The translations under genes were made by a program, and so were the position numbers. A stretch of 38,525 nt of DNA. Source: Cytophagales bacterium Ga0077538. Its GTDB lineage: Bacteria > Bacteroidota > Bacteroidia > Cytophagales > Cyclobacteriaceae. Below the pieces are notes generated by a model, which did no database searches, was not told the origin of the DNA, and saw nothing but the letters and a program-made list of their open reading frames with translations. Positions 2,418 through 9,541 of this stretch are shown here, one piece after another. The DNA lies in the NCBI GenBank assembly GCA_001464155.1, contig LNEN01000227.1, positions 1-38,525 of the forward strand, read 5' to 3'. Each line of letters starts with the position of its first letter. The stretch's first letter is position 1.

Positions 2418-2765
2418 ATGCACATACTCGAACAAATAAAGCAACAGCAAAATGAGCACACCAGGGCAGGTGTTTGCTTCTCTAATGTTATTCAAGACCT
2501 AGAGAAGGAACTACAGCGCATGAAGGATAAAAAATTGCCACAAGATTTAATTGATGCGCGTGACAATCAAATAGAAACCCTTATTGATTTCTATAACACA
2601 ACAGACAACCTATTTCAATTTTTTAAACTAGCCACTATCAATTTGCACTCCGAACTTAAGATAACTGAAGTATTACTTATGAGCACAGCGAAGAATCGCG
2701 AGATGCTTATAGATCAATTGATGAACTTTAAAATGCAACGCCATGGCAAAGCTGAAGCGCTTTAA
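2418..2765 (+). CDS. Hypothetical early protein, helical
   Basis: 115-aa ORF, overlaps the start of the replication gene. Confidence 0.55.
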   Translation: MHILEQIKQQQNEHTRAGVCFSNVIQDLEKELQRMKDKKLPQDLIDARDNQIETLIDFYNTTDNLFQFFKLATINLHSELKITEVLLMSTAKNREMLIDQLMNFKMQRHGKAEAL

Positions 2766-5058
2766 AGACGAACCAACAGGGTTAGAAATAAACCTAGAAA
2801 CCGGTGATGTAACGAAGCCAGAGCCTAAAGTATGGTCAGTTCAAACAATGGCCAGCTTTGCGAGGTGTGTTAATTTGGTTGATCAGATCGTTGCAAACCA
2901 ACTAAACATCGTTGACGATACGAATGTAACCACCATCGCTTATTCTCTTGTTGAGTTTGAAGAAAAAGGTAGATCGTTATTCACTCAGGTTTGCCTATTT
3001 CAACATCAATACGAAGTCCCCTTTTTAAACAACCTCTGGCAAGAAGCACTTCAAAAAAGCAAACGCAAATCTTCCTCATTTATAAAGATTTGTAAAGAGA
3101 AAGGTTTGCAAGCTGTTATCAGCGAGGACGAAGCGTGGACCTATATTTTAAAGGAACCCGGTAAAAGTCCTCGCGATATCAGTGCTGAACTTACCGAAGC
3201 TGATTCCGAATGCATACGAGAATATCATCACCTGGAGTATGACAACTGCTACTACTTTGCGAGATACGAGCGTGATGAACTGGGTAATCCTCGAAACTGT
3301 GTTCTCGAACGTAAAAGCAACTTTGTTTTGCAGATCCTCTACCACATACAGCGAGGTAAAATTAACAAGCGGGTGGTGGTCTTGAAAAACAATCGCAAAA
3401 GAGAAGTAACCCTGGATATTGAAACCGATCAAATCACCAGCTTTCAAAAGTTCAAATCAGTAACAGAAGGCGCTGGCAACTTCCTTTTTGAAGGTACTCA
3501 GGTAGACCTTAATAAAATCAAAAACAAACTATTTGAATTAGAAAAGCCATGCGTTCAAATAGATACACTTGGCTGGCACAAAAAAGGAAGCTTCTTCACC
3601 TTTTGCAACGGCATTTACAACGCACAGTTTAGACCGGTAGATAAATACGGGATAGTACAATACGAGGAATGTAATTACTACATACCCTATCATCCAGAAG
3701 GTGAAGAAAGTATGTTCTTAAACGAGAAAAAGTTCGCCTTTAAAGACAGTGCAATTACCTGGAGCCAGTGGGCGCCCATGTACTATAAAGCCTTTGGCGA
3801 AGCGGCCATGCCATGCTTGGTATTTGCAGTGGCTACTCTTTACAGTGATGCAATATTCGCAGCTAAAAACAATTTCCCGATGCTGTTTCTGTATGGAGAA
3901 GGTGGCTCTGGTAAATCTACAGTTGTCAACTTTTTGCAATACCTATTCGGCCAACCACAGCCAGCCCTTAAGCTCAGCGAAAAAGCGAATACTGATAAAG
4001 CAAAAATCAGAAAGCTGGCACAGTTTGCCAATGCCATAGCTTGTATGGAAGAGTACATCAACGATCTCGACCTTTCAGTTAAAAAAACACTTACCGGTAT
4101 ATACGACCGTCTCGGTTACGAACGTGGTACACTCGATAGTAAGTTCGGAACAGAAACAGTACCAATTCAGTCAACCATTATTGTGACTGGCAACGAATAT
4201 CCAGATGATGATCCACTATTGCAGCGGCTTATTCTAATCGATTACAACCACAACGTTCGCACACCAGAGGTTACCAAAAACTTCGATAAGTTAGTGCAGT
4301 TAAACAGGCAAGGCATTACCTCTGTTACCGGCCAATTGCTACAACACCGCGATAGCATTATTGCAAAATGGGATCAAGTCTATCGTCAAGAATTTATCAA
4401 CCTTAAAAATGCATACACAGGGCCGATTGTTCCCGATCGCATGATCGAGAATAATGCTGTTCTGCTAGCAGTTTACAAAATACTAAACGAAGTAGGTAGA
4501 GAATGGCCATTTACATACCTACAACTCCGCGATTTTCTTATCAAAACACTCATCAGCCAGGCTGATAAGCGCGACACAGGTGCGGTGCTGCAACGCTTCT
4601 GGGATATTGTGCTAAGTCTTCTCAATAAAAAAATAATCAAGAACGGGCGAGAAATTAAAGTAGATGGCAATGAAGTAAGCATTCGCTTTAAAGAGATTCA
4701 CCTACTGTACCTGGAAGAGCACAACAAGATCTACCGCAGCAAGGGGTTAGCATCAAACACCATATTGGAAAAATTAAAAGCCAGCCGAGCCTTTGAGCAA
4801 GCAAAGAGCAATGAGCGCTTTGGTGAGAAGGTAACAAGCAGTTATGTGTTTAAGTATGATGAGCTCGGTGTAGACTTTCTTTCCATCATTAACTACCAGC
4901 ATCAAGAGGCTATGCGTTTTGCCCAGAGGGAAGAGAAGGCTAATAGTCCAACTACTGCTACAGAACTAAATTCTGAAAATGTCAAAAACAATCATTTTTC
5001 AATGACACATAATCAAATAACTGAACCTTCAAATTCATCTGATGACCTCCCATTTTAA
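2743..5058 (+). CDS. Phage replication protein: P-loop primase/helicase type ATPase
   Basis: 771 aa with Walker A GEGGSGKSTVVNF, downstream acidic/NEY motifs (IVTGNEYPDDDPLLQRLILIDY), C-terminus SSDDLPF*. Confidence 0.75.
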   Translation: MAKLKRFKDEPTGLEINLETGDVTKPEPKVWSVQTMASFARCVNLVDQIVANQLNIVDDTNVTTIAYSLVEFEEKGRSLFTQVCLFQHQYEVPFLNNLWQEALQKSKRKSSSFIKICKEKGLQAVISEDEAWTYILKEPGKSPRDISAELTEADSECIREYHHLEYDNCYYFARYERDELGNPRNCVLERKSNFVLQILYHIQRGKINKRVVVLKNNRKREVTLDIETDQITSFQKFKSVTEGAGNFLFEGTQVDLNKIKNKLFELEKPCVQIDTLGWHKKGSFFTFCNGIYNAQFRPVDKYGIVQYEECNYYIPYHPEGEESMFLNEKKFAFKDSAITWSQWAPMYYKAFGEAAMPCLVFAVATLYSDAIFAAKNNFPMLFLYGEGGSGKSTVVNFLQYLFGQPQPALKLSEKANTDKAKIRKLAQFANAIACMEEYINDLDLSVKKTLTGIYDRLGYERGTLDSKFGTETVPIQSTIIVTGNEYPDDDPLLQRLILIDYNHNVRTPEVTKNFDKLVQLNRQGITSVTGQLLQHRDSIIAKWDQVYRQEFINLKNAYTGPIVPDRMIENNAVLLAVYKILNEVGREWPFTYLQLRDFLIKTLISQADKRDTGAVLQRFWDIVLSLLNKKIIKNGREIKVDGNEVSIRFKEIHLLYLEEHNKIYRSKGLASNTILEKLKASRAFEQAKSNERFGEKVTSSYVFKYDELGVDFLSIINYQHQEAMRFAQREEKANSPTTATELNSENVKNNHFSMTHNQITEPSNSSDDLPF

Positions 5059-5097: not shown

Positions 5098-5231
5098 TTC
5101 CTACACTTCCTACATTCCTACAAAGTGCTTTTTTTTAATAAAATCAAGCTTTTTAATGGTATTCAGTCTCGAAAAAGTGTAGGAAGTACTGTAGGAACTG
5201 TAGGACTTGTAGGAATGTAGGAATGTAGGAA
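5098..5231. repeat. Iteron-like array: 3x TTCCTAC opposed to 6x GTAGGA(A), AT-rich spacer; candidate replication origin
   Basis: TTCCTAC at 5098, 5107, 5115; GTAGGA at 5179, 5191, 5200, 5209, 5217, 5225; located in the intergenic region after the replication gene. Confidence 0.65.
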
Positions 5232-6032: not shown

Positions 6033-6350
6033 ATGAATCAAAAACTAGAATTATTTGCAATCGTTGAACTCTTTGGCCACACCAAAATGGCGGGTAAAGT
6101 AACCGAACAATCTATTGGACCTGCCACCTTTGTTCGCGTAGATGTTCCTGAAACAACTGAGCAGCCATCGTTCACCCGGCTACTTAACCCAAGCGCTATT
6201 TATGCGATCAATCCAGTTACCGAAGAAGTAATGGAACACATGGCTAAAAACTTCTCTCAAAAACCAATCGAAAGTTGGGACATTAGAAAAATGCACGAAA
6301 AGCTATTGAGCATTGGAGCAAATCCAAAAGACGATGATCTTCCGTACTGA
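6033..6350 (+). CDS. Small phage protein with SSB-like acidic C-terminal tip (DDDLPY)
   Basis: MNQKLELFAIVELFGHTKMAGKVTEQSIGPATFVRVDVPETTEQPSFTRLLNPSAIYAINPVTEEVMEHMAKNF...PKDDDLPY*. Confidence 0.65.
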   Translation: MNQKLELFAIVELFGHTKMAGKVTEQSIGPATFVRVDVPETTEQPSFTRLLNPSAIYAINPVTEEVMEHMAKNFSQKPIESWDIRKMHEKLLSIGANPKDDDLPY

Positions 6351-6370
6351 TCAATAGTTGATAGCCAGTG

Positions 6371-6397
6371 TTGGCAGGCCGTTTCAATGCCTGCCAA
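6371..6397. other. Perfect 9-bp stem hairpin TTGGCAGGC-N9-GCCTGCCAA
   Basis: 6371-6379 pairs with 6389-6397; 21 nt downstream of the stop codon at 6350. Confidence 0.6.
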
Positions 6398-6548
6398 TGT
6401 ATCAAGTATATGCGGTGCCTTTTTGTGCGGGTCGGATGTGGCGCAGGCTTGCAGGCTTATGCGCAGAAGCGAGGTTTGTGTGGTGATGGGCATGTGCCTG
6501 CAAAAGCGTGGATTTGAAAATTTAAAACTAATGCAGTATGTTTGAAGT

Positions 6549-6693
6549 GCGATATAAGTTACAATCACATGGAGCAATCCAATTCAAGCAGTACAATTTT
6601 AAAAATCTGGGAGGCATATCGGTGCAAGTCCGAAACGTCTGTTTACAGCTCCGCTGTAACTTATGTCGCGGTGACCTCCCTCTTTTTGTTTTT
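6549..6693 (+). ncRNA. Candidate structured cis-regulatory RNA with terminator-like 3' end
   Basis: GCGATATAAGTTACA (6549-6563) pairs with TGTAACTTATGTCGC (6655-6669), 15 bp with one G-U; competing hairpin TTACAGC(6643-6649)/GCTGTAA(6653-6659); GGGAGG (6609-6614)/CCTCCC (6675-6680) followed by TCTTTTTGTTTTT; internal TCGGTGCAAGTCCGA hairpin. Confidence 0.45.
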
Positions 6694-6954
6694 ATGCGAC
6701 ATAAAAATGACGACACTTGCCCATGCGCGAAGCACAGTAGCGCACCGGTAACGGACGAAGCACGAAACGCTATCAACGAACTCTTCTCCACTTATGGCGA
6801 CTATTCTGCAATAGACAGAGATCTATGGCAAATCATCGTTGCCGCCATCGCCAGTAAAGAATTAGACCAAGTACCCGGCTTCGAACGGGCAAACTATCTC
6901 GGCCTTTACCGCGAAGTCACTAACATTCTTAAACTACTTAAACCCACTGAGTAA
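6694..6954 (+). CDS. Hypothetical phage protein
   Basis: MRHKNDDTCPCAKHSSAPVTDEARNAINELFSTYGDYSAIDRDLWQIIVAAIASKELDQVPGFE...; the track start at 6538 would translate the structured RNA region, so the internal ATG is preferred. Confidence 0.5.
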   Translation: MRHKNDDTCPCAKHSSAPVTDEARNAINELFSTYGDYSAIDRDLWQIIVAAIASKELDQVPGFERANYLGLYREVTNILKLLKPTE

Positions 6955-7484
6955 TGGAAGCACTACAAGTATTCACGTACAATGGACAGGAAGTAGAATT
7001 TGACCTGACCAATTCTGCCCTTATGATTAACGCCACCGAAATGGCTAAAATCTTCGGAAAGCGAACCGATGTTTTCCTAAAAACTGACCATGCCCAAGCC
7101 TTCATAAAGGTGCTTAAGCTACCACCGAATGGTGGTAGCTTGTGGATAAAATCGACTGAAAATATTATACAAGAAAGAGGACGAAATGGTTTATGGATGC
7201 ACAGGATTTTAGCCCTCAAGTTTGCCGCTTGGCTTGACCCCAAGTTTGAACTATGGGTTTACCAGACCATTGATGAAATCCTTTTTGGCTCTTACCGGAG
7301 AATGGAAGAAAGCCTACGCCTTTCAGCCCAACGTAAAAACCGTATTGAGGAACTGAAAAACACTTTGGGTTCATCATCTGATTTTTTGGAACTGCAAAGG
7401 CTTGAACTGGAAGAACGGCAAGCCAGTTATGGAAGAACGAAGGAGAACCGTAATCAACTACAACTCTTTCGAGTAGCACAGTAA
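6954..7484 (+). CDS. KilA-N domain protein
   Basis: MEALQVFTYNGQEVEFDLTNSALMINATEMAKIFGKRTDVFLKTDHAQAFIK...GRNGLWMHRILALKFAAWLDPKFELWVYQTIDEI, KilA-N-type pattern. Confidence 0.8.
   Translation: MEALQVFTYNGQEVEFDLTNSALMINATEMAKIFGKRTDVFLKTDHAQAFIKVLKLPPNGGSLWIKSTENIIQERGRNGLWMHRILALKFAAWLDPKFELWVYQTIDEILFGSYRRMEESLRLSAQRKNRIEELKNTLGSSSDFLELQRLELEERQASYGRTKENRNQLQLFRVAQ
7116..7141. other. Perfect 11-bp hairpin inside the KilA-N gene
   Basis: AAGCTACCACC-GAAT-GGTGGTAGCTT. Confidence 0.7.
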
Positions 7485-8767: not shown

Positions 8768-9541
8768 TTAAAACGCTATTTCTTCATAGTCATAAAATGA
8801 ATGGGCCTCTTCTTTATTACCGATGCCATTCTTCCCTTTCAATTGCTTCACCGGCCAGGCTTGCATTAAGTCTTCATCGTAGGGCTTTATTAACTCCTGC
8901 AACAATTCCTTGTCTGCCTTATCATTAAAAGGCTTTAACCAATTGCGTTCCAATTCAGGCGGCAATATTACTGGCATGCGTGGTCCCTCAGTTTGCGCCC
9001 GTTCGTTGTTGTGGATTTTTGCCATCAAACCATTTGCTTCCGTGGTTACAATGGTAGCGGTATACCGAATGCTGCCAGTGCTCTTGTCCTCCCAACGCTC
9101 CCACAATCCGGCAAAGGTCATGCTCTCATTATTTTTAAGGCTTATGTAAAAGGGATAACTCTTACCACCTATATGGTGATGTTCAAAAAATCCATCAATG
9201 CAGGTGATCAGGCACCTACGTTGTTTGGCAGCTTCCCTGAATGACGGTTTTTCAAAAATACTTTCTCCCCTGGCGTTCAAACATTGCTTGCTGAGTTTAG
9301 CTGCATCTGCAGGCGACTTCACCCAAAACGGAATAAGTCCCCAATTGTAGGGTTGAAACTCCTGTGGCTTTTCATTCGTAATAACAGGAAGCTTGGGATG
9401 TACAAATCCACTAACATAGTAGGTTGGTTGCTGCTCAACCTTTTCAAGTTTGCTTTTATACGCTTCCACATCCTCTTTGCTGCCATGTCTTTCGGCATAC
9501 TTGTAATTCTTTCTAGAGAGGTAGGATAAATCGTAACACAT
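8768..9541 (-). CDS. SRAP domain protein (YedK/HMCES-like, abasic-site DNA-protein crosslinking)
   Basis: Starts MCYDLSYL (Cys2), CLNARGESIFEKPSFREA, RCLITCIDGFFEHHH, AKIHNNERAQTEGPRMPVIL: SRAP family signatures. Confidence 0.9.
   Translation of the reverse strand: MCYDLSYLSRKNYKYAERHGSKEDVEAYKSKLEKVEQQPTYYVSGFVHPKLPVITNEKPQEFQPYNWGLIPFWVKSPADAAKLSKQCLNARGESIFEKPSFREAAKQRRCLITCIDGFFEHHHIGGKSYPFYISLKNNESMTFAGLWERWEDKSTGSIRYTATIVTTEANGLMAKIHNNERAQTEGPRMPVILPPELERNWLKPFNDKADKELLQELIKPYDEDLMQAWPVKQLKGKNGIGNKEEAHSFYDYEEIAF

Follow-up and report, generated by a model that had tools for sequence, protein, structure and literature searches.

The cI RNA of phage P4, with its seqA, seqB and seqC elements, has one segment whose complement occurs twice in the leader, once upstream and once downstream of it. 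This RNA acts by transcription termination, and an antirepressor is not its target. In P22, the small antisense RNA sar blocks translation of the phage antirepressor, and in P1 and P7 the c4 RNA pairs close to the ribosome binding site and thereby stops synthesis of the antirepressor (PMC12197685). RNase P excises c4 from a longer transcript (PMC5320573). The immI region of P1 is ordered a1/b1, c4, a2/b2, icd and ant1, and the start of ant1 overlaps icd.

In the window, by which we mean the whole 38,525-nucleotide stretch of DNA that was analysed, the initial annotation had proposed a two-state regulatory RNA upstream of a small phage gene. This proposal is supported. Judged from sequence comparison, the element probably serves as leader to an antirepressor operon and gives rise to a C4-like antisense immunity RNA that would be new for Bacteroidota. 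It is most likely an antisense RNA that maintains dormancy of the phage, in the manner of c4 in P1, because one stretch of it fits both the first bases of the element and the next start codon, and because antirepressors follow in related phages. The following features are recognized.

6513..6544, plus strand: Bacteroidota-type promoter, with the -33 element TTTG at 6513-6516, a 20-nt spacer and the -7 element TATGTTTG at 6537-6544
6549..6563, plus strand: 5′ arm, the first nucleotides of the predicted transcript; an a1-like decoy, predicted to pair with the anti-arm as stem a
6609..6680, plus strand: core RNA closed by stem c, delimited by alignment A3, model R1 and pair counts, in the place of the P1 stem of C4
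6620..6632, plus strand: T-loop hairpin CGG-TGCAAGT-CCG, the source of a resemblance to cobalamin riboswitches
6636..6639, plus strand: putative second antisense segment CGTC, b′-like, complementary to GACG at 6709-6712
6643..6659, plus strand: P3-like hairpin TTACAGC-TCC-GCTGTAA, which competes with the inner part of stem a
6661..6669, plus strand: anti-arm TTATGTCGC, a′-like, predicted to pair with the 5′ arm or the gene start
6694..6954, plus strand: small ORF of 86 aa in the position of icd, with a start complementary to the anti-arm
6954..7484, plus strand: KilA-N domain protein, antirepressor-like (Pfam PF04383, E 2.1e-15; PHROG transcriptional regulator, 2.5e-21)

Comparison with Described Antisense RNAs

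The element shares its layout with C4 (RF01695, which targets a1/b1, RF03163). Specifically, each is a leader RNA closed by a stem and containing two inner hairpins, each carries an antisense segment just ahead of the 3′ strand of the closing stem, and each has two targets, one upstream and one at the start of a small ORF that overlaps the antirepressor gene at its end. The order of RNA, small ORF and antirepressor gene with an overlapping start is found in the window and in most antirepressor-bearing phage members of the family, and is not found in chromosomal copies. The two RNAs differ in their closing stems, which are about 17 bp long in C4 and 6-7 bp in the Bacteroidota element, and in the T-loop hairpin present in the latter. 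Furthermore, the second segment, which is in a loop in C4, lies between the hairpins, the target begins at the G of the ATG rather than upstream of the ATG, and the hosts, unlike those of C4, are Bacteroidota.

Neither RNA is matched by the sequence or model of the other. The RF01695 model, which P1 itself matches at 68.8 bits, finds nothing in the window at the gathering score or in 6300-6800 at E<=10, and our covariance model R1 does not find P1 c4. Thus, the Bacteroidota element matches C4 in layout and target and not in sequence, and by sequence it is not a member of the Rfam C4 family. As in C4 (~77 nt when mature and processed by RNase P), the core begins with GG in many members, although this is no proof of processing. 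The likeness to P22 sar, a small antisense RNA against a phage antirepressor, is one of proposed function. With the P4 cI RNA the element shares one segment with two leader partners; it differs in that the P4 RNA works through termination and has no antirepressor target. A further possibility, which we stop just short of favoring, is that the element is unrelated to C4 by descent and represents a Bacteroidota-specific kind of phage immunity RNA, in which a copy of the target at the first nucleotides of the transcript acts as a decoy that restrains the antisense arm, swappable arms set immunity groups, and stand-alone copies are retained in host chromosomes.

Architecture of the Leader and Conservation of Its Core

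Stem a joins 6549-6563 to 6655-6669 through 15 bp with a single G-U, as read in the window sequence. Among 300 dinucleotide shuffles of 6538-6700, the longest stem with at most one G-U reached 12 bp, and only one other site in the whole 38.5 kb has a similar stem at similar spacing. Stem a is beyond chance for its region. In hairpin b, TTACAGC (6643-6649) pairs with GCTGTAA (6653-6659), and in stem c GGGAGG (6609-6614) pairs with CCTCCC (6675-6680), followed by TCTTTTTGTTTTT (6681-6693) and the ATG at 6694. Stems a and c interleave. All three stems and their interleaving had been listed in the initial annotation, and all are present in the DNA. The nested minimum-free-energy fold taken alone is ordinary (z = -1.1), as is expected if a pseudoknot or alternative folds matter, and the nested fold of the whole leader is uninformative.

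About 50 related loci, on chromosomes of Bacteroidota and on phage contigs, were collected. BLASTN against 297 genomes had returned one relative, with the same stems and different letters, and the set was grown from pattern scans and the covariance model. The first patterns fixed GTGCAAGTCC and CGCNGTGACC, such that conservation of those letters is partly by construction at the loci so found; at loci that came from the model or from the final pattern, the arm letters differ (GAC, GCA, GTC, GCT), yet complementarity is preserved. Matches occur in 11 of 395 genomes in a sample of Bacteroidia, one of them weak, and in 3 of 398 in a sample of the phylum. By BLASTN, the window element has no match in annotated phages, and that of L067 has none in annotated phages or plasmids.

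Model R1 matches the window core with 75.4 bits at 6602-6683. Across 26 aligned members, compensatory changes are present in stem c, the T-loop hairpin and hairpin b, and 93% of the cells are paired. The covariation score is 0.394, compared with 0.176 +/- 0.016 in shuffles, none of which (0/500) reaches it; six of the seven base pairs of the hairpin at 6643..6659 have changed on both sides across the family. The initial annotation had proposed a covariation check, and the compensatory changes in these 26 relatives settle the reality of the element, with a core that sequence comparison establishes as conserved. This core at 6609..6680 is likely the mature antisense RNA.

One Anti-Arm, Two Predicted Partners

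The observation that we consider decisive, which is absent from the initial annotation, is that the 3′ arm of stem a is also complementary to the gene start. The sequence GCGACATAA at 6696-6704, beginning with the G of the ATG, is the exact complement of the anti-arm at 6661-6669. In a fixed register, at least 8 of 10 bases pair the anti-arm with the gene start in 46 of 49 relatives. When 29 distinct arms are compared, each anti-arm forms on average 9.14 of 10 pairs with its own gene start and 5.73 with foreign ones, and 20,000 permutations of the arms gave at most 7.10. The test scored the first open ATG and omitted duplicates, degenerate copies, and L131 and L137, whose start codons are elsewhere; in L131, the pairing of the anti-arm spans bases upstream of the ATG plus the ATG itself. 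The three misses are both of the exchanged copies in L151, described below, and L118, in which the paired ATG is not the first open one.

The 5′ arm is the other predicted partner. Bacteroidota promoters have the published consensus TTTG / TANNTTTG, in which position -5 is occupied by the final G of the -7 element (PMC6847099). From this published position, +1 is predicted to be 6549, the first base of the 5′ arm, a point also missing from the initial annotation. The window promoter shows one deviation, a G at 6540 that is rare in the published -7 set. In 21 of the 26 distinct-arm members that have a -7-like element, the 5′ arm begins 4 nt past it, this offset having been picked by best pairing among 2-7 nt. 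The contiguous run between 5′ arm and anti-arm averages 11.5 nt of 12 within a member and 5.6 with foreign anti-arms (37 members). In nearly every member, the 9-12 nt that precede NGTGACC pair with the 5′ arm, which begins 4 nt past the TANNTTTG element, and also with the gene start, where the pairing begins at the G of the ATG. At the level of sequence, the position of the promoter and this three-way complementarity in a fixed register are established.

Predicted duplexes between core and target range from -15.7 to -25.2 kcal/mol in 17 members. Two observations count against an antisense function. In the predicted fold of the isolated core, the anti-arm would be only partly unpaired (about 0.3-0.7), and the second contact is weak across the family (permutation p about 0.011), although individual members, L145 and L134 among them, show it clearly.

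Possible Action in Trans

Two tandem copies at L151:11215-11780 have exchanged their anti-arms, such that each 5′ arm and gene start pairs with the core of the other copy. The cross-copy pairings comprise 12, 9, 11 and 11 of 12 positions, compared with 5-6 within a copy. This arrangement, known from one locus on one metagenomic contig, suggests action in trans, since a device that works only in cis would be broken in both copies whereas trans-acting RNAs would still function.

The same locus bears on a cis-acting riboswitch or protein-sensing leader, in which a ligand or protein on the T-loop core would choose the partner of the anti-arm, with the 5′ arm giving the on state and the gene start the off state, and nothing would act in trans. 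Such a leader would be expected to have what is seen in the window, namely one segment with two mutually exclusive pairings, a conserved core, and a start codon at the edge of the pairing. Nevertheless, we regard it as unlikely: a cis-only device would not tolerate the exchange in L151, the arms vary widely while the core is constant, and P1 and P7 provide a direct antisense precedent for the antirepressor context. Together, that context and the exchanged anti-arms are better fitted by an antisense RNA than by a ligand-gated attenuator.

Genome G755 has four chromosomal copies (L102, L113, L115, L117) with different arms, which form 9-10 of 10 pairs with their own targets and 3-8 with the others. 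Paralogues in the same genome are only partly insulated in G755, and in Larkinella they are not insulated, which counts against the antisense-immunity reading.

Downstream Genes

In the window, the ATG of the KilA-N gene overlaps the stop codon of the small ORF (TAATG, 6952-6956). Phage contigs generally carry the RNA, usually a small ORF, and then an antirepressor gene that often overlaps the end of the small ORF. Downstream sequence of at least 700 nt is available for 17 of the 19 viral loci, and an antirepressor gene (KilA-N, Bro-N, Rha or AntA) is present in 11 of the 17. Antirepressor domains (KilA-N, Bro-N, Rha, AntA, ANT) are encoded downstream of the element in the window, at ten further phage loci and in L107. 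A narrower phmmer search recovered antirepressors at 9 of 19 true loci and at none of 32 chance-hit viral control loci, and the antirepressor context is established at the level of sequence comparison. No antirepressor is recognized in the stretch examined for six phage members (L118, L134, L137, L019, L131, L147). Nearly all chromosomal copies (Flagellimonas, Muricauda, Larkinella and others) also lack one and consist of the RNA and small ORF only. Members of this kind count against the antisense-immunity reading.

The product of the small ORF matches no Pfam, NCBIfam, PADLOC or PDB family and has only chance-level matches in PHROG. It is predicted with moderate confidence to form a helical bundle, for which no fold match was found at E<=0.001. 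Phage loci and chromosomal loci both encode proteins of the same kind (hhalign E 4.6e-5, probability 69), and a peptide-pattern search for relatives returned only the window itself.

Might the RNA instead restrain a toxic small protein, as in a toxin-antitoxin module, with the antirepressors as passengers? The RNA and small ORF are the only unit common to most loci, the chromosomal copies stand alone, and Icd of P1 blocks cell division (PMC8201110). We consider this explanation quite improbable, given that the small protein has no match to a toxin or defense family and that the RNA in L125 and L107 is followed immediately by an antirepressor gene, with no separate small ORF.

The Cobalamin Resemblance

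The initial annotation had also described a cobalamin-riboswitch-like core and suggested a cmscan search, which did not bear this out. No Rfam family matches the window at gathering scores, a permissive scan of 6300-6800 (E<=10) gave two chance matches, neither of them to cobalamin, and none of ten relatives gave a match at the gathering score; on these grounds, we set aside cobalamin along with every other Rfam family. The T-loop hairpin GGTGCAAGTCCG resembles the L4 hairpin of cobalamin riboswitches. This likeness to RF00174 is confined to GGTGnAAGTCC, a generic RNA motif, and nothing else is shared. The genes downstream are antirepressors and small ORFs, not B12 genes, and membership in RF00174 or the AdoCbl variant RF01689, with no match to either model, is hardly credible.

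A coding or chance origin is equally far-fetched: the frame of ORF 6538-6954 spans the leader and is open in the window from 6538, yet the coding conservation over 6538-6693 that the initial annotation had set against its own proposal is contradicted by in-frame stops between the 5′ arm and the gene ATG in 47 of 49 relatives, and the covariation follows pairs.

Proposed Mechanism and Implications

We hypothesize that transcription would start at 6549 and that the leader would fold such that the anti-arm at 6661-6669, carried by the core at 6609-6680, pairs either with the first bases of the transcript or with the small ORF start at 6696-6704, with a possible second contact of the core at 6709-6712. 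Until the core is released by cleavage or the fold changes, the anti-arm would be sequestered by the 5′ arm. When the anti-arm occupies the gene start, translation of the small ORF would be blocked, and the block would extend to the KilA-N antirepressor via the overlapping TAATG junction. With the antirepressor off, the prophage would stay silent, and incoming relatives with the same arm would also be silenced. Release of the core as a separate RNA, its action in trans, the repression of translation and the role in immunity are the steps that we infer.

If true, control of lysogeny by antisense RNA acting on an antirepressor would extend from P1, P7 and P22 to the phages of Bacteroidota, a large group whose regulation is little known. 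The anti-arm sequence would then predict which prophages exclude which relatives. Likewise, the stand-alone chromosomal copies would represent host use of a phage immunity RNA, as has been proposed for C4 in Acinetobacter (PMC5320573). The element would be a switch at the translation start, suited to a phylum without Shine-Dalgarno sequences (PMC6847099).

Additional Observations

At least four consecutive T residues shortly past stem c occur in 41 of 54 members, and the window scan gave no terminator-like site; an intrinsic terminator at this position was rejected. A reverse transcriptase fragment near L002 and flanking direct repeats had raised the possibility of a group II intron or retron, which was dropped because the small gene alone is common to the loci. 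Two tandem copies are present at L075:538-1068, the second with neither promoter nor 5′ arm and with a shortened small ORF. At L106:1501-1620, the gene start is ACG in place of ATG and the complementarity is retained; this copy is probably a remnant. Elsewhere in the window, a gene for an SOS response associated peptidase (SRAP, Pfam PF02586) lies on the minus strand of the prophage at 8768-9541. Repeats of the GTAGGAA type (about 5178-5231), with inverted copies at about 5098-5123, follow a primase-like gene (2743-5058), and this cluster at 5098-5231 is possibly a phage replication origin.
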